Shown piece after piece: positions 6,520 to 46,365 of a stretch of DNA of 64,000 nt (position 1 is the stretch's first letter; the number at the start of each line of letters is the position of its first letter). The notes under the pieces are model-generated. The model was not told the DNA's origin. It did no database searches and saw only the letters and a list, made by a program, of their open reading frames with translations. The position numbers and the translations under genes were made by a program. This DNA comes from Halobacteriovorax sp. GB3 (lineage in GTDB: Bacteria; Bdellovibrionota; Bacteriovoracia; Bacteriovoracales; Bacteriovoracaceae): positions 310,001-374,000 of the forward strand of contig NZ_JAQSLN010000003.1 in NCBI RefSeq assembly GCF_028649655.1, written 5' to 3'.

Positions 6520-6975
6520 CTAGGATTCTCGAATATTCTCGTTAATGTAGTTCCAATAGATGATTTGATAGCAGAGGGTCTTAAAGCCTAGCCCAACATA
6601 GAGAACCTGAAACATCCAAAAGTTGGTATTGGTATGAAAGTAATTATTTTGCCATGATTCATAAAAGTTAAAAAGGATAATAGGATGAAGGACATACAAA
6701 GAAGCATGGACGAGACGTTCTTCTTTTTTTAGGCCCTGGTAAAAGAACTCATTCTTAATAATAGAGATCATCGAAAGTGCTGCGAGTGCTTTGTAAACAA
6801 CGATCATCTCTTGTGAGAAAGGTACAAATGTAGCAAAGAGAATGACCACAAAAAAGAGGGCCGCATCTATAATGATACTCCAAATCTCTTTAACGGAGTG
6901 AGCTCTTCCTTTGTTAAAGTAATGCTCGTCAATATTCATCAAGATCACATGAAGACACATTAAAAGCAAAGTCAT
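6520..6975 (-). CDS. Small integral membrane protein, unknown function
   Basis: Not recognised. About 151 aa with four predicted membrane helices (roughly residues 1-15, 32-60, 85-105 and 118-140) and few charged residues in them. A TTG-started form begins 12 bases upstream, but GGAG is well spaced for the ATG at 6973-6975. It lies alone between the isocitrate dehydrogenase gene and the prophage left end, on the same strand as icd. It is the last host gene before the insertion and does not look broken. Confidence 0.7.
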   Translation of the reverse strand: MTLLLMCLHVILMNIDEHYFNKGRAHSVKEIWSIIIDAALFFVVILFATFVPFSQEMIVVYKALAALSMISIIKNEFFYQGLKKEERLVHASLYVLHPIILFNFYESWQNNYFHTNTNFWMFQVLYVGLGFKTLCYQIIYWNYINENIRES

Positions 6976-7065
6976 AGGGAGCTCCAAAACTAAAATAGAT
7001 ATTGGATAAATGATCTCATAAAAATTTGTTGAATTAAAATTAAGAATAAATAAAGGGGGTGGTGT

Positions 7066-7098
7066 TAATGGTAGCTCGGGGCAGAGTTGAACTGCCGA
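7066..7098. other. attL, 33-bp prophage attachment repeat
   Basis: Identical to 46286-46318, beginning TAATGGTAGCTCGG and ending GAACTGCCGA. It copies only the 3' end of the tRNA-Met gene (CCA, acceptor 3' strand and most of the T arm on the minus strand); the following bases do not continue the tRNA, so no functional tRNA exists at this end. Consistent with integrase crossover in a tRNA 3' end, with the intact gene kept at the other end. Confidence 0.92.
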
Positions 7099-7140
7099 AT
7101 ATATCTATAACTAACTGTAATCTATGAACGCAAATATACT

Positions 7141-7177
7141 TGCACACAGAGTGCACACAACTTTTTGCACGCAACTT
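7141..7177. repeat. Left arm-type repeats, TGCACACAA family
   Basis: Three direct copies of a TGCACRCA-type 12-mer start at 7141 (TGCACACAGAG, divergent), 7152 (TGCACACAACTT) and 7166 (TGCACGCAACTT), about 45-80 bp inside attL. The same family occurs four times just inside the right end (46154-46208). Position and repetition suggest binding sites for the integrase N-terminal domain (arm sites). Confidence 0.7.
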
Positions 7178-7241
7178 GATGTTTCTTATTTATAAAGAAC
7201 GGCATTATTGATATGAACTCTTATTAATTTAGGAGAACGTA

Positions 7242-8043: not shown

Positions 8044-8346
8044 TTAATATGGAGAGACGATATGTCTATTCCAAAGTTCCCATTTGTTCATACAGTTTTG
8101 ATTTGAAGGATTACAAACGATTAGGACGGGGCGGCATTTTTCCGAGAAGAGCCTCTTTTTACATTCCTTGTGCCAAAGACATAGGTTACCACTGAATGAA
8201 TATTTGGGCATATTTGGCAAATCATGCTCTTCTGTACACCACTTCCAAACTAATTTTTCTTTTGCTATTCCTTGCATTTTCCAAGATGAGCTATGAGAAC
8301 AAGAGCTGAAAAACAACAATAATAATAAAATTGCTTTTTTATACAT
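8044..8346 (-). CDS. Small phage lipoprotein, possible outer-membrane spanin subunit
   Basis: About 100 aa beginning with a lipoprotein signal: a short hydrophobic stretch then LLFFSSCSHSS, Cys being the predicted lipidated residue near position 16. The mature part has several Cys and Trp residues. The ATG at 8344-8346 overlaps the stop of the upstream gene and follows AAGGTGGTG; a GTG start four codons earlier is less likely. A small lipoprotein gene overlapping the preceding gene recalls Rz/Rz1 spanin pairs, but the mature region lacks the proline richness of classical Rz1, so this is only a hypothesis. Endolysin is at 9588 on the other strand. Confidence 0.6.
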   Translation of the reverse strand: MYKKAILLLLLFFSSCSHSSSWKMQGIAKEKLVWKWCTEEHDLPNMPKYSFSGNLCLWHKECKKRLFSEKCRPVLIVCNPSNQNCMNKWELWNRHIVSPY

Positions 8347-8590
8347 TTGATACACCACCTTTTTTGAGTTCCCCTACATATGCCTTTAGAAAGGTTTCAA
8401 GCTCTTCCTTAATTATCGCAACATCATAATCGGTGTATTCTCCAATGGGTCTATTTTCCGCATGGTTTAATCTTTTTAAAATGTCGTGATACTTATCTAG
8501 ATATCTCGTTCTTCTTTCTTCGTTCCATGCCTTGGTCCCTTCGACAAGTAATTCACCAATGATAGGCAAAAGTGTAGCTGACATTTTCAA
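8339..8590 (-). CDS. Small helical phage protein, unknown function
   Basis: Not recognised. 83 aa with a short apolar N-terminal stretch (ATLLPIIGELL) followed by charged, probably helical sequence rich in Lys, Glu and Arg. Its last codons overlap the start of the lipoprotein gene. AGGAG precedes the ATG. If the pair is a spanin, this would be the inner-membrane partner, but the N-terminal apolar segment is shorter than a normal membrane helix, which weighs against that. Confidence 0.55.
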   Translation of the reverse strand: MKMSATLLPIIGELLVEGTKAWNEERRTRYLDKYHDILKRLNHAENRPIGEYTDYDVAIIKEELETFLKAYVGELKKGGVSNV

Positions 8591-9587: not shown

Positions 9588-10256
9588 ATGTTAACAAAAT
9601 TAATCAAGGCAATTCGAAACTTTTTTAACCCTAAAGTAAAACAACAAATCCCACAGTCAGAGATTGATCAAATAACTATCCCTGAACTAAATCAAGGAAG
9701 CTCAATCAATGTAGAAGCTCCGAACTTACAGGATTTGTTACTTAAGAAATTTAAGGAAGATCTAAACAAGCTTAACACAAGCAACGAGGCGATAGAGCTC
9801 ATAAAAGAAAGAGAGGGTCTTTATTTGGACCCATATAAATGTTCCGCAGGAGTACCGACGATTGGATATGGAACAACATATTATCCAGATGGAAGTAAGG
9901 TGAAGATGAATGATCCTTCAATTTCAGAAATGCAAGCGTTGTACTTTTTAAAACATGAAATAATGGAAAAAGAAAAAGAAATTGAAACATTTTTCTATAA
10001 GAATAATATTCAATTTAACTGTAACGAATTCTCTGCTCTTGTCTCATTTGTTTATAACTTAGGAGCTGGCCCAGTTGTTAACAAAAGCAAATCTATGTCA
10101 AAAGCAATTCTGAGCCGAAACAAACTTAGAATTGCAGACACATTTCTTATATACAACAAGGCAAGAGTTGGTATTTTTAAACGATTGAAAGCACTGCGAG
10201 GCCTGACAATTCGAAGAGAAAAAGAAAGAGCTCTTTTCTTAAAGCCAATTAACTAA
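9588..10256 (+). CDS. Phage endolysin, GH24 lysozyme
   Basis: Muramidase that cuts peptidoglycan to release progeny. The catalytic region starts near residue 66 and has the GH24 pattern E-8aa-C-5aa-T (E76, C85, T91), then IGYGTT and EFSALVSFVYNLGAG. The Cys in place of the T4-type Asp is a known variant in this family. About 65 residues precede the catalytic domain; they begin MLTKLIKAIRNFF, an amphipathic or weakly apolar segment without a clear cleavable signal, so export probably needs a holin. Start follows AATGGAGGCTTT. Stop overlaps the end of a convergent gene by a few bases. Confidence 0.9.
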   Translation: MLTKLIKAIRNFFNPKVKQQIPQSEIDQITIPELNQGSSINVEAPNLQDLLLKKFKEDLNKLNTSNEAIELIKEREGLYLDPYKCSAGVPTIGYGTTYYPDGSKVKMNDPSISEMQALYFLKHEIMEKEKEIETFFYKNNIQFNCNEFSALVSFVYNLGAGPVVNKSKSMSKAILSRNKLRIADTFLIYNKARVGIFKRLKALRGLTIRREKERALFLKPIN

Positions 10257-10710: not shown

Positions 10711-11145
10711 TTAATTACACCAATCAACCTTTTTTTTAGTTTTCCCTCTATAGGGATAAGCTAGTTTATTCTTTAATAGAATATCTGAAAGGTTTTTTCC
10801 ATCCACTTGAACATCTGCAACAATTCTAAAGTATTTTCCCTTTTTGACGTTGGTAAGATTTATTACTTTTCCATTCTTAAGGACAGATCTAACTAATTTC
10901 TTAGCCATTCTTCCCTTGCGTTTTTCACATTTATCTTTAGTTCTTAACTCTGGTGTATCAACTCCATTTACTCGTATCTTTGCCTTCTTTCCGAGCAATG
11001 GGTGAACATTTGGAATATTAACTGTTATTGTATCACCATCATAGTTATCAACATATTTCACGCATTTGAATTCTTTATTTGTGTGAACACAATCTGCCAT
11101 GCAAATGGAAGGAAGTACCAATATTAAGAAGATAATGTGTTTCAT
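10711..11145 (-). CDS. Secreted thermonuclease-family (SNase-like) nuclease
   Basis: 144 aa with a cleavable signal peptide (IIFLILVLPSICMA, cleavage near residue 17) and a staphylococcal-nuclease fold: DNYDGDTITVNI (metal-binding Asp region), KIRVNGVDTPEL with the catalytic Arg, and a later YFRIVADVQVDGKNLSDILL where the second catalytic Arg and the dimer of strands lie. Likely degrades DNA or RNA in the periplasm or outside. The start overlaps the stop of the RHH-like gene in an ATGA junction. A secreted nuclease carried by a prophage could be a lysogenic-conversion factor or act on incoming phage DNA; both are inference. Confidence 0.85.
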   Translation of the reverse strand: MKHIIFLILVLPSICMADCVHTNKEFKCVKYVDNYDGDTITVNIPNVHPLLGKKAKIRVNGVDTPELRTKDKCEKRKGRMAKKLVRSVLKNGKVINLTNVKKGKYFRIVADVQVDGKNLSDILLKNKLAYPYRGKTKKKVDWCN

Positions 11146-28579: not shown

Positions 28580-29185
28580 ATGCAAAACCCAGATTCAATC
28601 GGAAGCGTTAATGGAAATTTTTCTGATGGCGATCCAAAACTAGGCCTGAAACCGACACATGTGCTGGCGAAATGGTTTAACAGTGTAAATAAAGAAATTG
28701 CTAATGTCATCCTTGCTGCGGGAATTGACTTAGTGCCAGCAGGTACAGAAGAAAGCGATGAAGACTTTGAAACTGATCAGCTGCTTAAGGCAGTAAAAAC
28801 TATCGCAGGATCAACATTCTTGTCTTGTTCAATTGAAAATAATGCCGCAGTCGATACCGCTTTTATGAATGGTCCGGACGAGCTCTTTATCTTTGACTCG
28901 AGCAAAACAACTAGCTTTGAAATATCTTACGAAGCATACAGAAAATCAGTTGATACAGAGACAATTGCAATAGGAAAAATTGCCTACGCCTACCTTCCTT
29001 CAGCAGATAAATATGTAAGACTGAAAAGAGATCAAAACCAACATTCAGAGATAGGCTTAGACTTTCCTGAAGAACTCGAAAAAATCGAAGAAACGACAAA
29101 CTTTATTCTTAAATACAAAACAAATGAGTTCACTGGCGGCTCATACGTTGGAAGATTTAAGTACAATTTATACAAATTTGACTAA
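28580..29185 (+). CDS. Probable tail fibre-region protein
   Basis: 201 aa. The N-terminus has NFSDGDPKLGLKPTHVLAKW and FNSVNKEIANVILAAGIDLV, resembling the head of phage fibre proteins (a GDP...T...W(L/F)N...E pattern) that attach to the gp48-type protein. The rest is not recognised. No receptor-binding repeat follows within this gene. AGGGAGAGTAAA precedes the ATG. Confidence 0.65.
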   Translation: MQNPDSIGSVNGNFSDGDPKLGLKPTHVLAKWFNSVNKEIANVILAAGIDLVPAGTEESDEDFETDQLLKAVKTIAGSTFLSCSIENNAAVDTAFMNGPDELFIFDSSKTTSFEISYEAYRKSVDTETIAIGKIAYAYLPSADKYVRLKRDQNQHSEIGLDFPEELEKIEETTNFILKYKTNEFTGGSYVGRFKYNLYKFD

Positions 29186-29195
29186 GGAGATTAAG

Positions 29196-30950
29196 GTGAA
29201 ATTATTTCTATTTCTTCTTTTGGCCTTTTCCTTAATTGCACACTCTTCTGAAAAACAGATCTATGAAGACACTGTTAAAGTTGGAAAATCGCAAACAAGG
29301 GCCATTAGATCAAACGAAACAAAACAAAAGCTTGAATTCACACACGATGGTACCAACTGGAAAACAATGGGATCTGGCTCTGGAGGTTCTGGTGGTGAGA
29401 ACTACGATAACGCATTAACAGATGATGATAATCCAAATGCAGAAAACGGAACAGAAAAATGGACTGGCTCAGGTGGAGTTTTTAATTATGACGATCAAGA
29501 TCCTCTTGAAGGAAGTCGCTCATTCGTTTTCACTCCGAGTGCACAAGGGGATGAAAGGTGTACTGCTTTTAAGAATTTCAACACAGATAGATTTAAAAGC
29601 CAATCTTGTGAAGCGCGTGTAACCTATGTCGGTGGAGACAAGAATCTTGATCTATTAGTAGTCGATGGAAACGGCGATATACTTAACCCGCAGGTAGATG
29701 GAGCGAATGAAGATTCCAATAATAGATCGCTCTCACCTTCAACAGTAAAAAGTTATCACAGCGTAAGCTTTCTTTGCCCGTCTCAGGCGAGCATTGTAGC
29801 TGATGCCAACAAGGGTAATATTAAAGTATGCCTAAAGAATACAGGGGCGACCTCAGCACCCTCTGTTAAGTTTGATAAGGTTTATGCTGGCACTTTATCT
29901 GGCTTAACAGAAGAGGTAACGCCAAGCTCATTTAGTTCTTTACTCGGTAGTGATGGCTCTATCACAAGTCAGTCGTCAACGTGGCTTAGTGGTTCTTGCA
30001 CCGTTGGGACTGGTGTCTATACGTGTCCCGTCGTTACTGGTCTTGTTTCTCAGAAGCTCGCTTGTCAAATGACGGTAGACACGGGGACTTATCAATACTG
30101 GGGAACTTATGACTCGTCAAATTCAAGCCCTACGCAAGTCGTCTTTAGAACTTCAAATGATGGCGTAGCCTCTAATGCAAAGTTATCGGTATTTTGCCAT
30201 AAGCAAGGGGCAGACTCTAACAATAAAGTAACCGCCTATAGAGCATTACCTAAAGCGGTTGAGTATTTTCCTATCCTTTGGGCGAAAACAAATAGAATTG
30301 GAGACTATCAAAACTCAAGCACTGGTTCAAAATGGTGGGACTCAGCATCTTGCTCAAGTGGCGTTGTAACTTTTAATTATGCTAGTCTAGGTCTACAGGC
30401 TCCCCCAGTTTTCTCGGTTAATGAGGCGATTCACTCACAAGTAAGAGTAACAAGCCCCTCAACAACAAACGTGCAATTCACTTTCTTTACAGAGGGCGGG
30501 GCTCTTGCGAGTTGTGGCTCTATAAACTCTATTCAAATATATTTAGGTAAGAGTGCTCTTGATTTTCAGTTGCCGACCTTGCGTCCTCTGTTAATTCCAA
30601 ACGCAGTTTTTTATGGGCCCTATGATTTAACAGTAAGCGGGACTAACTGGACAAGTAACTATACGAAGGGCGTTTTTTACACTGTAAATGGCGAATGGTT
30701 TGCGTCTCTTGTTATCGGTGGCGACCTTTCGCCCTCGGGCTCATCTTTTTCAAATACAATCGCGGGCGTTTCGTTTGAATCTGGCATAAATCAACCTTGC
30801 TCAGCACTTGGACAGTCTGGGACATATAACAATGCGTGGACAGGTGCGGGCACAGGTGTGGTTAACTTTCAATCAGGAGTAAATAGCACAGGCGTAAGAG
30901 TAAATTGCTCGAATGTGAAACTCCTCTCTAAACCAACATTTATACCTTAA
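29196..30950 (+). CDS. Exported protein in tail-fibre position, possible receptor-binding or lysogenic-conversion protein
   Basis: About 584 aa from the GTG at 29196, preceded by AAGGAG; a longer in-frame version from 29124 overlaps the previous gene and would bury the signal. The N-terminus LFLFLLLAFSLIAHSSEK is a clear signal peptide, cleavage near residue 18. The mature part is rich in Ser, Thr, Gly and Asn, with paired Cys residues, a Gly/Ser linker (GSGSGGSGG) and beta-strand segments such as GTNWTSNYTKGVFYTVNGEW. It looks like an adhesin or fibre, but a cleavable signal peptide is not normal for a virion protein. Next gene is also exported. Confidence 0.7.
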   Translation: MKLFLFLLLAFSLIAHSSEKQIYEDTVKVGKSQTRAIRSNETKQKLEFTHDGTNWKTMGSGSGGSGGENYDNALTDDDNPNAENGTEKWTGSGGVFNYDDQDPLEGSRSFVFTPSAQGDERCTAFKNFNTDRFKSQSCEARVTYVGGDKNLDLLVVDGNGDILNPQVDGANEDSNNRSLSPSTVKSYHSVSFLCPSQASIVADANKGNIKVCLKNTGATSAPSVKFDKVYAGTLSGLTEEVTPSSFSSLLGSDGSITSQSSTWLSGSCTVGTGVYTCPVVTGLVSQKLACQMTVDTGTYQYWGTYDSSNSSPTQVVFRTSNDGVASNAKLSVFCHKQGADSNNKVTAYRALPKAVEYFPILWAKTNRIGDYQNSSTGSKWWDSASCSSGVVTFNYASLGLQAPPVFSVNEAIHSQVRVTSPSTTNVQFTFFTEGGALASCGSINSIQIYLGKSALDFQLPTLRPLLIPNAVFYGPYDLTVSGTNWTSNYTKGVFYTVNGEWFASLVIGGDLSPSGSSFSNTIAGVSFESGINQPCSALGQSGTYNNAWTGAGTGVVNFQSGVNSTGVRVNCSNVKLLSKPTFIP

Positions 30951-30961
30951 GGAGAATCAGA

Positions 30962-31681
30962 ATGAGGTTTTTAATATTTTTACTATTGTCTTTTAACTGT
31001 TTTGCAATCGACCATTACATTCAAAAAAGTAGTGTTGCAGATTGTACCAAGTCGCAATCTGTATTCTCTGGGCCAATGGCATTTATTGAGTGTTCAAAAC
31101 TTGGGGAGTGTATAGAGGTAAAGGAAAATCCTTACAACTGTAATTACTCTCAAGTCGTTCCCGAAATGATTGAAGATAAAACTAAGCCTCAATATTCGAA
31201 GCGAGTCACTTATGAGTGTGGAGATAATTGTCAATCTCTTTGGGATCAGGGAGCACCATATACGAACTGTTTACCAGGGGAAAAAGAGGCTATTTTAAAT
31301 CTCGAGCTTGAGCAAATTTATTGTACGACCTTAACGGGTTATGCTCAGCTCGCATCTGGGCGTGAAATTGTAACAATCAACCCAGCGTTAAAAACAGCTT
31401 TCGACAATGCAATCGCTCAAAAACAAGCAATCAAAGACTCAATAGCGCGAGGTAAATTGATATCGTCAAAATGTCAGGATGCTTTGGCATATATTACTGA
31501 TTACAATAATCAGGCAGGACGAACTATTGAAGAGATCACAAATCTCCAAGCGACATACTCGACATTCATTGATGCTATTACTGTTAACAGAATAGACCTT
31601 GCTATCTCTGAGTTGAACAATGTTACAGCTCCTGAAATGCAAAGTCTTAAGACAGCTCTTCTTTCAATTCTTCAAAACTAA
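30962..31681 (+). CDS. Exported Cys-rich protein, unknown function
   Basis: Not recognised. 239 aa with signal peptide FLIFLLLSFNCFA (cleavage near residue 15), then a Cys-rich region (about 10 Cys in the first 130 residues) implying disulfides outside the cytoplasm, and a helical C-terminal half. AAGGAGAATCAG precedes the ATG, 12 bases after the previous stop, so the two exported genes are co-expressed at the end of the tail operon. Possible partner or chaperone of the preceding protein. Confidence 0.65.
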   Translation: MRFLIFLLLSFNCFAIDHYIQKSSVADCTKSQSVFSGPMAFIECSKLGECIEVKENPYNCNYSQVVPEMIEDKTKPQYSKRVTYECGDNCQSLWDQGAPYTNCLPGEKEAILNLELEQIYCTTLTGYAQLASGREIVTINPALKTAFDNAIAQKQAIKDSIARGKLISSKCQDALAYITDYNNQAGRTIEEITNLQATYSTFIDAITVNRIDLAISELNNVTAPEMQSLKTALLSILQN

Positions 31682-31719: not shown

Positions 31720-31745
31720 GGTCCTAGATATTAACGTCTAGGGCC
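31720..31745 (+). promoter_or_regulatory. Hairpin covering a ribosome-binding site
   Basis: GGTCCTAGA (31720-31728), loop TATTAACG, TCTAGGGCC (31737-31745): nine pairs with one G-U. The 3' arm contains the only ribosome-binding sequence (TAGGG) of the ATG at 31750, so the hairpin would hold back translation of the following membrane protein. No U-tract follows, arguing against a plain terminator. Confidence 0.5.
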
Positions 31746-31749
31746 ATTT

Positions 31750-31998
31750 ATGTTAACGAAAGAAAAGACTCAATCACTGAAAGACTACATATTCATAGCA
31801 ACAACGGCCATAGGTGTCGTTCTTTATATGCATAGAACATTTGCAACTCAAGAGGCACTCAATCAAGCTCGATTACTGATTAAACAACAAGACGTTCAAA
31901 TCAAGTTTCAAAATAAGGTTCAGTGTTTGATTGCAAGAAGACTCGAAGTTGAAGAATCTAAATTAGATAAAATCTGCGATTTTACATTGGATAGATAA
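31750..31998 (+). CDS. Small membrane protein, possible spanin or lysis protein
   Basis: 82 aa with one N-terminal membrane helix (YIFIATTAIGVVLYMH, about residues 13-28) and a long polar helix outside it. This N-in, helix-out layout resembles inner-membrane spanin or antiholin proteins. It lies just after the tail operon and overlaps by one base a second small membrane protein. Its ribosome-binding site is inside a stable hairpin. Function inferred from layout only. Confidence 0.55.
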   Translation: MLTKEKTQSLKDYIFIATTAIGVVLYMHRTFATQEALNQARLLIKQQDVQIKFQNKVQCLIARRLEVEESKLDKICDFTLDR

Positions 31999-32198
31999 TG
32001 AAAAAGCCATTTTATTCATCAAAAGTGAATATTGTTAACTTGATCATATTAGGACTTCTCTGTATTCCAAAAGTAAATGAGATGGCCGAAAAGAATCCAA
32101 ATACAATTTTATTTTTAAGCTGCCTCTTGAATCTTGTTTTTAGAAACCTCAGAAGTAATACAAAGCTTATATCCTGCAAGGTTAAGGACGCGGATTAA
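31998..32198 (+). CDS. Small two-helix membrane protein, holin candidate
   Basis: 66 aa with two predicted membrane helices (INLIILGLLCIP-like at about residues 10-25 and TILFLSCLLNLVF at 37-50), a polar tight loop and basic C-terminus. This is the layout of class II holins. The overlap with the preceding single-helix protein fits a lysis gene pair. The endolysin, however, is 22 kb away at 9588. Its end overlaps the convergent HTH gene by 84 bp. Confidence 0.55.
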   Translation: MKKPFYSSKVNIVNLIILGLLCIPKVNEMAEKNPNTILFLSCLLNLVFRNLRSNTKLISCKVKDAD

Positions 32199-33908: not shown

Positions 33909-34205
33909 TTAATGAGAAACCGTTTCTTTAGAATAAACTGACTTGACAAATTTATATTCTTTTTCAAATCGCTCTCTTATGCGATCAGACATGCAGTTAC
34001 TAACAAAAATATCAGCACGAGGATTGGTGCAATAAACAGACCTAACCAATTCATTCATAAAAGATTGGTTTACCATTTCAATATTATCAAAATCGAGTTC
34101 ATACTCATCGTACGCTTGGCCATCTAGTGCCTTTTCTACTAACGATTTTGCTAAGATTCTTCCTGAAAGCATTTTTTGATTTGCGACAAATAGTTTGATC
34201 TTCAT
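33909..34205 (-). CDS. STAS-like DUF4325 protein
   Basis: 98 aa. SGRILAKSLVEKAL near residues 14-27 and LDFDNIEMVNQSFMNELVRS near 42-61 are the DUF4325 pattern, a STAS-like fold related to anti-sigma antagonists; the segment resembles D.....I..SF..E. Start overlaps the ATPase stop by 4 bases (ATGA), so the two are coupled. In known partner-switching systems a GHKL kinase and a STAS protein bind each other, which is the obvious model here. Confidence 0.82.
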   Translation of the reverse strand: MKIKLFVANQKMLSGRILAKSLVEKALDGQAYDEYELDFDNIEMVNQSFMNELVRSVYCTNPRADIFVSNCMSDRIRERFEKEYKFVKSVYSKETVSH

Positions 34206-35023
34206 AATTTAATCCTAAAATCAAGAGACGTACCTACAAATGGATTCTCAGTATGGAGCCTCGATACAATTTTACCACTAGTTGGAATATGAAAATAGCC
34301 ATCATGGCTCTGGATCGTTATTTCCCCCTTATAAGCTCTAACAATATTACATACTTCATTAAGCCCGATACCTCGCATAGGGTCTATAATAGATGATACA
34401 TGTCTCTCCATCGCTTTTTCAATAAGTTTATTTGATGCAAGGCCTAAAAGCTTGAAAGTTCTATTAAAAGCTCCCCGAAATCCAATACCTAAATCACAAA
34501 AAGAGAATTCAAACGTCCTTATACTGGGATAAAACTGGGCAGAAAAGTAACCCCACCCTTCATTTTCGCGATTTCCAGAATGGTAAAAAACATTGTTCGC
34601 AACTTCTGTGATCGCTGTATGCAAATCATCTTTAATATGGTCAATTGGTAGCCCGTTCAACTTAAGCGACTCCAAAACTAGGCCTGCAATATAATCATTG
34701 TTTTCATTATCTATTTTTTGTAGTTCGACTAATGAACGATTTTGGCGAACGATGTTAGGGTATGTGTAACTAGGGATAAGGTTAAATAGTCCCATTCTTC
34801 CACAGTAGGATTTTACTTTTTCGCACCTTGGATAAATGACATCTTTATGAATGCAATTTGAACGTGCTAAAAGATCGATTAGACACATAATATGAGTCAT
34901 ATCACTTGGATGCACATTTCTAACATTATAAAGACTCAGAGTAACCTTGGTTGAACTGTTTATTGTAGAAGGTGCTAACTTTCTATCGACTAAACTAGCC
35001 ATATCAATTATTTTGATCTTCAT
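34202..35023 (-). CDS. GHKL (HATPase) protein with N-terminal STAS-like region
   Basis: About 273 aa from the ATG at 35021-35023, preceded by GGAG; a longer form from 35050 has no support. N-terminal 110 residues include TLSLYNVRNVHPSDMTHIMC, a STAS-like strand-helix, and the C-terminal half is an ATPase of the histidine kinase/Spo0F-anti-sigma type: N box ITEVANNVFYHSG, G1 DLGIGF, G2 RGIGLNEV, G3 FVGTSLDF. No phosphoacceptor-His domain is seen. It could phosphorylate or sequester the downstream STAS-like protein. Substrate unknown. Confidence 0.8.
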   Translation of the reverse strand: MKIKIIDMASLVDRKLAPSTINSSTKVTLSLYNVRNVHPSDMTHIMCLIDLLARSNCIHKDVIYPRCEKVKSYCGRMGLFNLIPSYTYPNIVRQNRSLVELQKIDNENNDYIAGLVLESLKLNGLPIDHIKDDLHTAITEVANNVFYHSGNRENEGWGYFSAQFYPSIRTFEFSFCDLGIGFRGAFNRTFKLLGLASNKLIEKAMERHVSSIIDPMRGIGLNEVCNIVRAYKGEITIQSHDGYFHIPTSGKIVSRLHTENPFVGTSLDFRIKL

Positions 35024-35097
35024 AATAACTCCAGCGAGAACATGTTTCAAAAGAGCGAAATTGAGCTATTCACCTCAACATCCATCCATAATTTATT

Positions 35098-44804: not shown

Positions 44805-44905
44805 AATCACTTACTGCGCTGAGTCTCAACGCAAGGGATTGTTATATGCAAAAAAACAACCTACACTCCGGTTCGCCAATATTTTTAAAGAACAAGGAGT
44901 TCCAA

Positions 44906-46153
44906 ATGGACGGAAAAGTCTATCCGGACACTCGTGCACGTTGCACAGAGTGTGGGTCTTCTAGTTTCGAGAGCAAAGTCAAATTATCAGGTTTTACAAT
45001 CCCCTATTGTAAGTGTGGTGGGCATCCTAATAAATTTAGACTTACTTCTTACTTCCCAGACGCTTCAAAGAAGTCAGGGAGATCTCGAACAGAAGACATT
45101 AGATTCACAGACACAGGAGAACGAATAAGCGATCCTGGAACAGCGGTCTACATGTTGAAGCAGATTGAAAAAGAAATCGATCTAGGATCATTTAAGCCAG
45201 AGAAGTACACATCAACCAAAAACAGGGCAAAGTTTCTCATCTCCAACATTGCAGCTGAGTACATCAAATTCAATGAAGCAAGAAGAGAAGATCCTGACGA
45301 TAAAATCTCAAAGAGAACTCTCCGAGATAAAAAGACGATTATGAAAAAACATATCGTCCCTATTTATGGCCATCTAGATATTCAACAATTGAGTAAGAAA
45401 AACATTAAAGAACTCTTCTCAAAAGTTAAATCAAATAGAAGGAGAGTACACGAAGAACTGACTCAACTTTTAAAGTTTGCTAAACATGAAATGGAAATAG
45501 TCTTTACGATTCCTCCACTTCCAAAGAAGCCTTCAAGCTCTTATAGAGATGAAACAACAATTCCAGATATTGACTGTACCTGGAAGGTTATTGAGCACCT
45601 TGATGATCCTAGAGCTAAAGCAGTATCCATTATCTGTATGGTCTACCTCTTAAGGCCTTCCGATGTTCTGACAATCAAACCATGCGACATAGATAGAAAG
45701 TCTAGGACTCTGAAGATTCAAAGACATGATTCTGATGGAATTTGTGAAGAAGGTAGGAAGTCCGACAGTAAGAAGAAGCAGAGAGAGATTCATGTTCTGC
45801 CAATAGTAAACGAATTAGATATGGCTCTAGATTTGGTTGCAAGACCTCCATCGTCTGAAGATTTCTATTTCACAGGAACAAAAGAAGGAAGCTACTACCC
45901 TTACTCAACATTCAACAACGCATGGATAAGAGCGAGAAAAGCCGCTGGATACCCTGACCTTCCTTTTTATACATCTACTAAGCACGCAAGAGCTACAGAC
46001 CTCATAGCTAAAGGTTTTACTTCTGAGCAAGTAAGACGTGTTGCTGGAATTGGAGCAAAAGCATTCGAACATTACAGCAGATTAAAGGCCCACCAAGTTG
46101 AGAATGTTGTCATTGATTTTGATAGAGAACGATTCAAAAGAGCTATCGGATAG
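44906..46153 (+). CDS. Tyrosine-recombinase integrase
   Basis: 415 aa from the ATG at 44906 (AAGGAG at 44894-44899); a start at 44846 would add 20 residues. N-terminal Cys pairs (CTECG, CKCGG) may form a small zinc ribbon, followed by an arm/core-binding region and the catalytic domain: YLLRPSDVLTIK (Arg I), YTSTKHARATDLIAKG (box II) and the nucleophile Tyr in AFEHYSRLKAH. Box II carries Lys where most enzymes have Arg, unusual but maybe tolerated. It is adjacent to attR and reads toward it. Excises and integrates at the tRNA-Met 3' end. Confidence 0.93.
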   Translation: MDGKVYPDTRARCTECGSSSFESKVKLSGFTIPYCKCGGHPNKFRLTSYFPDASKKSGRSRTEDIRFTDTGERISDPGTAVYMLKQIEKEIDLGSFKPEKYTSTKNRAKFLISNIAAEYIKFNEARREDPDDKISKRTLRDKKTIMKKHIVPIYGHLDIQQLSKKNIKELFSKVKSNRRRVHEELTQLLKFAKHEMEIVFTIPPLPKKPSSSYRDETTIPDIDCTWKVIEHLDDPRAKAVSIICMVYLLRPSDVLTIKPCDIDRKSRTLKIQRHDSDGICEEGRKSDSKKKQREIHVLPIVNELDMALDLVARPPSSEDFYFTGTKEGSYYPYSTFNNAWIRARKAAGYPDLPFYTSTKHARATDLIAKGFTSEQVRRVAGIGAKAFEHYSRLKAHQVENVVIDFDRERFKRAIG

Positions 46154-46285: not shown

Positions 46286-46318
46286 TAATGGTAGCTCGGG
46301 GCAGAGTTGAACTGCCGA
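46286..46318. other. attR, 33-bp attachment repeat within tRNA-Met
   Basis: Identical to 7066-7098; here it continues into the whole tRNA gene, which stays intact. Prophage right boundary. Confidence 0.92.
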
Positions 46319-46365
46319 CCTCCGGGTTATGAATCCGGCGCTCTCACCAACTGAGCTACCGAGCC
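46289..46365 (-). tRNA. tRNA-Met (CAU), prophage integration target
   Basis: 77 nt including encoded CCA. Minus-strand reading begins GGCTCGG and ends CGAGCTACCA; D arm with TAGCTCAGTTGG, anticodon loop TTCATAA (CAU), T arm with GTTCAACTC in place of the usual GTTCGAATC. A G1-U72 wobble is seen in the acceptor stem. Elongator Met is preferred; a lysidine-modified tRNA-Ile2 also has CAU in the gene, so a tRNA-Ile2 identity is not excluded. No -35/-10 pair was assigned. Confidence 0.9.

Follow-up and report, generated by a model that had tools for sequence, protein, structure and literature searches.

A tail-fibre cassette with predicted signal peptides in a Halobacteriovorax prophage and its leaderless counterpart

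In this work, we analysed a 64,000-nucleotide stretch of Halobacteriovorax DNA (the window) and found that the tail operon of its prophage ends in two genes, P0001 and P0002, whose products are very probably exported through the Sec pathway, as judged from their sequences. Comparison with two other phages, here called G022 and L126, indicates that one tail-fibre cassette occurs in leaderless and exported forms, because the pair is leaderless in G022 and bears signal peptides in the window and in L126. The reading that we favour, at a probability of roughly 0.4, is that the two proteins fold in the periplasm with disulfides and then dock on the fibre head of the virion at lysis.

The prophage is bounded by a perfect 33-bp direct repeat at 7066-7098 and 46286-46318. 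The second copy falls in a tRNA-Met gene (46289-46365), and an integrase gene lies nearby at 44846-46153. The repeats are the attL and attR sites of the prophage, which is about 39.2 kb in length. Because its gene set runs from terminase to Gp48, comprising terminase, portal, protease/major head protein, tail sheath, tape measure, a baseplate wedge protein of the gp47 type and Gp48 (family match, 4.7e-24), the element is a contractile-tailed prophage that looks intact, without obvious damage. Downstream of gp48 lie a fibre-head gene, P0001, P0002, a terminator-like hairpin and two small membrane ORFs, in that order, with P0001 and P0002 as the final two genes of the tail operon. The features are as follows.

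28580..29185, + strand: P0003, leaderless tail-fibre head of 201 aa; N-terminal ~80-105 aa of tail-fibre type, then a short C-terminal domain
29184..29189, + strand: Shine-Dalgarno AAGGAG of P0001 (start GTG 29196); it overlaps the head-gene stop codon
29196..30950, + strand: P0001, predicted exported fibre protein of 584 aa (signal-peptide rule, Cys enrichment, homology to the L126 and G022 fibres)
29196..29246, + strand: predicted Sec signal peptide of P0001 (aa 1-17, with the cleavage site behind residue 15 or 17)
30949..30954, + strand: Shine-Dalgarno AAGGAG of P0002 (start ATG 30962), arranged as in P0001
30962..31681, + strand: P0002, predicted exported Cys-rich partner of 239 aa (signal-peptide rule, Cys content, homology to the L126 partner)
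30962..31006, + strand: predicted Sec signal peptide of P0002 (aa 1-15)
31720..31745, + strand: terminator-like hairpin of 10 bp, ending the tail operon

Residues 3-109 of P0003 match PHROG tail-fibre profiles, down to 3.5e-11, and the protein does not pass our signal-peptide rule. The position of P0001 and P0002, right after the baseplate gp47/gp48 genes and the fibre head in a late operon, is that of a phage tail fibre cassette, as is their sequence relation to the fibres of other phages (G022, with its near-identical contig L113, and L126). No other distal fibre was apparent among the prophage ORFs.

Signal peptides were called by a simple rule for the n-, h- and c-regions, a stand-in for SignalP that passes every host gene of the window that was tested and is clearly exported, as well as 31 of 1000 late proteins after shuffling. 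Three of the 24 late genes pass, namely P0001, P0002 and a 66-aa holin-like ORF at 31998. Both P0001 and P0002 have, by this rule, the positive n-region, hydrophobic core and permissible cleavage site of Sec-exported proteins; the predicted signal peptides are MKLFLFLLLAFSLIAHS, cleaved before SEKQ, in P0001 and MRFLIFLLLSFNCFA, cleaved before IDHY, in P0002. Neither protein has a lipobox, as a lipoprotein would, or a later transmembrane segment. None of the 20 genes downstream of gp48 in seven related contractile phages passes the rule; in phiKM1, a protein farther downstream of gp48 resembles a Tat lipoprotein, which the rule misses. The GTG at 29196 was borne out as the start codon of P0001 by the strong AAGGAG upstream of it, whereas the other in-frame starts nearby (TTG 29220, ATG 29367 and ATG 29124, the last within the preceding gene) have no comparable Shine-Dalgarno site.

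The sequence-only reading had described two adjacent ORFs with Sec signal peptides after gp48 and the fibre head, and this was confirmed, the strongest support being the conservation of the pair and its signal peptides in L126. Its description of the mature parts as Cys-rich holds for P0002 (10 cysteines in 239 residues versus 41 in 5926 in the preceding phage genes; Fisher P 2e-5) and only moderately for P0001 (12 in 584 versus the same 41 in 5926; Fisher P 0.002). The spacing of the 12 cysteines of P0001 suggests intradomain disulfide pairing. The term adhesin-like gains indirect support only, from the relation to phage fibres and from weak CBM-like fold matches of a poor model.

Two relatives of the pair were found, giving three phages in total, two of which have the exported form. 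G022 is a prophage in a genome of the same family (contig C64, locus L004) and is near-identical to an IMG/VR contig (L113, IMGVR_UViG_3300000234_000027). L126 is the IMG/VR contig IMGVR_UViG_3300022221_000069 and surfaced solely with an alignment of the tip domain. The regions of P0001 and P0002 that these comparisons delimit are the following.

29247..29375, + strand: mature N-terminal stretch of P0001 (aa 18-60), related to the N-terminus of the G022 fibre, itself leaderless (SNETKQKLEFTHDG / SNETTHKLELSHDG; shuffle Z 8.6)
29373..29915, + strand: beta-rich region of P0001 (aa 60-240), common to the L126 fibre (Z 6.0) and weakly to that of G022 (Z 3.6); weak jelly-roll/CBM-like fold matches
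30573..30947, + strand: C-terminal tip domain of P0001 (aa 460-584), its most conserved part; 35% identity to the L126 fibre (Z 22) and to the G022 fibre (Z 14)
31007..31375, + strand: eight-cysteine domain of P0002 (aa 16-138), with all 8 Cys kept in the L126 partner
31379..31678, + strand: C-terminal domain of P0002 (aa 140-239), related to the G022 partner, which is leaderless (Z 5.4); helical by a low-confidence prediction

The G022 fibre (803 aa) is thus related to P0001 at the N-terminal stretch, the tip and, more weakly, the beta-rich region, and its partner (235 aa), encoded directly downstream, shares the C-terminal domain of P0002 (12 of 37 residues identical). Both lack signal peptides and are poor in cysteine (2/803 and 1/235), as expected for cytoplasmic fibre assembly. 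The G022 fibre differs from P0001 in its greater length, with an extra C-terminal domain, and in its tail gene neighbours. A short segment of it is 63% identical to the putative tail fibre of Roseobacter phage CRP-212, with a weak E-value of 0.07.

In L126, the gene order is baseplate J, a DUF2612 protein at the Gp48 position, a leaderless head of 206 aa, a signal-peptide fibre (744 aa; MKKIINYLIVYVLALNTAFGA), a signal-peptide partner (195 aa; MKIFNIIILLILSLNVFA) and lysis genes. The tip match to P0001 has an E-value of 1e-13, and P0002 and the L126 partner are 31% identical over 177 residues (4e-20), with 8 of 8 domain cysteines conserved. The two phages are alike in having a leaderless head of ~200 aa, an exported-type fibre and an eight-Cys partner with a signal peptide; they differ in baseplate lineage, which is of the DUF2612 type in L126 and of the Gp48 type in the window prophage, and their heads are unrelated (Z -0.5). 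Because the heads are unrelated and the tail lineages differ, fibre and partner appear to behave as an exchangeable module between tail types. The middle of the L126 fibre is closer to G022 than to P0001; its strong relation to the G022 fibre (35% identity across 281 residues) ties the exported fibres to a leaderless one. In each of the three phages, fibre and partner would share a compartment, the cytoplasm in G022 and, by prediction, the outside of it in the window prophage and L126, which suggests that the two act together, with the partner as chaperone or tip cap.

Immediately downstream of the pair, at 31750-32198, are two short membrane ORFs that are holin-like by position; the endolysin gene is distant, at 9588-10256. 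P0002, which precedes these holin-like genes, was considered as a spanin or other lysis protein and rejected, since it is related to the fibre partner of G022, which points to a role in the fibre. In L126, a Cys-containing lipoprotein (6810-7184) encoded beside an amidase resembles the ORF in the corresponding position of L004 (10762-11055) and is possibly an outer-membrane spanin.

Searches of curated collections placed only one of the three adjacent proteins. P0003 alone among the head, P0001 and P0002 has a match, and no family in Pfam, NCBIfam or PHROG covers P0001 or P0002. A match to a curated fibre family is not strictly required, since fibre bodies mostly vary too much to be caught by profiles of this kind. 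P0002 matched no known profile of tail-fibre assembly proteins of the Tfa/gp38 chaperone type, and the fibre profile gave no sequence match in the PDB. The AlphaFold models (pLDDT 46 for P0002 and 39 for P0001) are too poor to decide a role; with the P0001 model, at that pLDDT of 39, Foldseek returned no more than weak matches to carbohydrate-binding jelly-rolls (E >= 0.07) and viral matches of low TM, which we did not count as evidence. Viral contigs scanned with the single sequences of P0001, P0002, P0003, gp48 and the sheath gave no matches, and two scans of genome contigs yielded no relatives. Among 369 genomes of the phylum, neither another gp48 prophage nor a host copy of the P0002 partner domain was found. 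Weak genome matches to the N-terminal 63 aa were rejected as chance signal-peptide similarity, and those weak matches to the P0002 C-terminus that were inspected are unrelated host proteins, for example regulators and chemotaxis receptors. The pair would work like a tail-fibre cassette, resembles an exported adhesin in its location signal and falls in no curated family.

In the model that we favour, P0001 would be the distal tail fibre and P0002 its dedicated partner, both re-addressed to the Sec pathway. The leaderless P0003 would be built onto the baseplate in the cytoplasm, while P0001 and P0002 would pass into the periplasm, where they would fold and acquire disulfides, P0002 serving as chaperone or tip cap; the fibre would then dock on the head once lysis mixes virions with periplasm. 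The analysis establishes the ORFs, their signal-peptide sequences, the cysteine enrichment, the place in the operon, the homology to fibres and partners of two further phages and the leaderless version in one of these; cleavage, disulfides, the chaperone or cap role and docking at lysis are the steps that we infer. A virion role is favoured because the pair occupies the fibre position of the late operon and the prophage has no other apparent distal fibre. Consistent with it are the tight Shine-Dalgarno coupling of the pair at that position, where no convincing promoter for the pair was seen and the hairpin follows it, and the recurrence of the order head, signal-peptide fibre, signal-peptide partner in L126, whose head is unrelated and whose baseplate protein is of another type. 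Contractile phages of the Mu/SfV type that encode Gp48 (such as Alteromonadaceae phage B23 and Bordetella phage PY223) have the same baseplate genes and fibre-head type, but in them the head is fused to the fibre body and no signal peptides follow gp48, whereas in the window prophage the polypeptide is split where export would begin. In a prophage of Silvanigrella aquatica (L117, 6531-8431), too, the fibre head is separate and very short (119 aa), and the genes after it are likewise separate and leaderless, so that fibres of the split kind may be common in hosts of this group.

It is chemically feasible for fibres or spikes to be joined to particles after lysis, as in vitro complementation with T4 fibres and P22 tailspikes illustrates. 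Against docking, we know of no tailed-phage virion protein that is exported by Sec, and the open-access literature yielded no report of such a protein or of a Sec-exported distal tail fibre. Dilution at lysis would also disfavour docking; no conserved docking interface is visible, because P0003 has no relation to the head of L126; just two phages have the exported form; and the structure models are poor (see above).

The main rival to docking is that the pair, once exported, is retained by the infected or lysogenic cell as a tail-fibre-derived factor for surface adhesion or superinfection exclusion, leaving the 201-aa head alone as the virion fibre. We regard this as possible but doubtful. The signal peptides and Cys-rich ectodomains would suit it, the prophage encodes other exported proteins, such as the SNase homologue described below, and precedents make it credible. 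Bdellovibrio displays exported, phage-fibre-like adhesins (mosaic adhesive trimers, MATs) on its surface, and the MAT fibres of Bdellovibrio bacteriovorus (PMC10769870) share with P0001 a fibre-like character, phage-fibre ancestry, a predatory lineage and, by prediction for P0001, export. The lambda gene lom, located between those for the tail spike and the fibre, is active in lysogens; like our pair, Lom is a signal-peptide protein encoded among the spike and fibre genes of a temperate phage (PMC12309495). The host genome also has a MAT-like S74 fibre of its own.

Unlike the MATs, however, P0001 has no S74 domain, is encoded within the tail operon of a prophage and is accompanied by a partner that is likewise predicted to be exported. 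The conserved ~130-aa beta-rich domain that directly follows the signal peptide in MATs was not found in P0001 (best BLASTP E-value against the host MAT-like fibre 0.84, with no match at the N-terminus), nor was a C-terminal S74 or known NS74 tip at the sequence level (no Pfam family, no PDB sequence match), and assignment of P0001 to the Bdellovibrio MAT adhesins was rejected on these grounds. Lom is an outer-membrane beta-barrel unrelated to fibres, whereas P0001 and P0002 match, at the sequence level, no OmpX-like barrel or other outer-membrane protein family. More generally, the pair shows no lipobox and no barrel, autotransporter or MAT N-terminal match, lies in a late tail operon with no convincing promoter of its own seen, and has a partner domain with no host copy in the phylum set; surface retention would moreover leave the virion with a fibre of 201 aa. 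The host fibre itself (G000:C3:1043112-1047323, L124) is a 1403-aa exported S74 protein that matches Bdellovibrio Bd2133 (4e-8), as would fit a predatory Bdellovibrionota lineage for the host, and is a MAT-type adhesin unrelated to P0001; it and a second S74 protein of the genome were rejected as relatives of P0001.

A receptor-masking decoy is considerably less likely: a fibre tip made late would bind the host receptor from the periplasm or from outside and keep progeny off debris or neighbouring lysed cells, following the logic of T5 Llp. Late expression, as inferred from operon position, would fit, and the tip, probably the receptor-binding end, is the part most conserved across the three phages while heads and N-termini differ; yet the entire fibre body is retained rather than the tip alone, and no receptor is known. 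It is more improbable still that nothing is exported, the hydrophobic N-termini being left uncleaved or a downstream start used in an ordinary cytoplasmic fibre and chaperone, as the fibre position and the leaderless homologous pair of G022 might suggest, since adjacent genes carry two independent signal peptides, both conserved in L126, cysteines are enriched with eight of them conserved, and no competing ribosome-binding site lies downstream.

The sequence-only reading had the two proteins either exposed on the lysogen surface, for exclusion or prey attachment, or assembled on virions outside the cytoplasm after lysis, and this is supported in part. Export of two adjacent fibre-position proteins is now backed by sequence, cysteines and recurrence in L126, and fibre identity by the leaderless G022 pair; no sign of prey attachment emerged. 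Tailed-phage virions are taken to be assembled wholly in the cytoplasm. If docking and virion use hold true, a conserved signal-peptide fibre cassette would break this rule, and we propose, tentatively and as less than an even chance, that some tailed phages finish their tails extracytoplasmically, with a Sec-exported distal fibre and a disulfide-rich partner that undergo oxidation in the periplasm and meet a leaderless head on the virion only when the cell lyses; the cassette would be exchangeable from one type of tail to another. Otherwise, the tail operon of a phage would harbour a tail fibre converted to a secreted adhesin or receptor blocker, and predator adhesins such as the MATs may have arisen from phage fibres along this path. 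Since one cassette exists both with and without export signals, the question can be put directly to the test.

Three further loci of the prophage were recorded. On the opposite strand to the late operon, an SNase homologue with a signal peptide (10711-11145, - strand; Pfam 2e-10) is a candidate exported nuclease of the phage. Near the left prophage end, a small lipoprotein-like ORF (8044-8358, - strand) has a lipobox-like SSC behind its hydrophobic core and belongs to no Pfam family. At 33909-35050 (- strand), a STAS-like DUF4325 protein (3e-8) adjoins a GHKL-ATPase-like protein, forming a kinase/anti-sigma-like pair.
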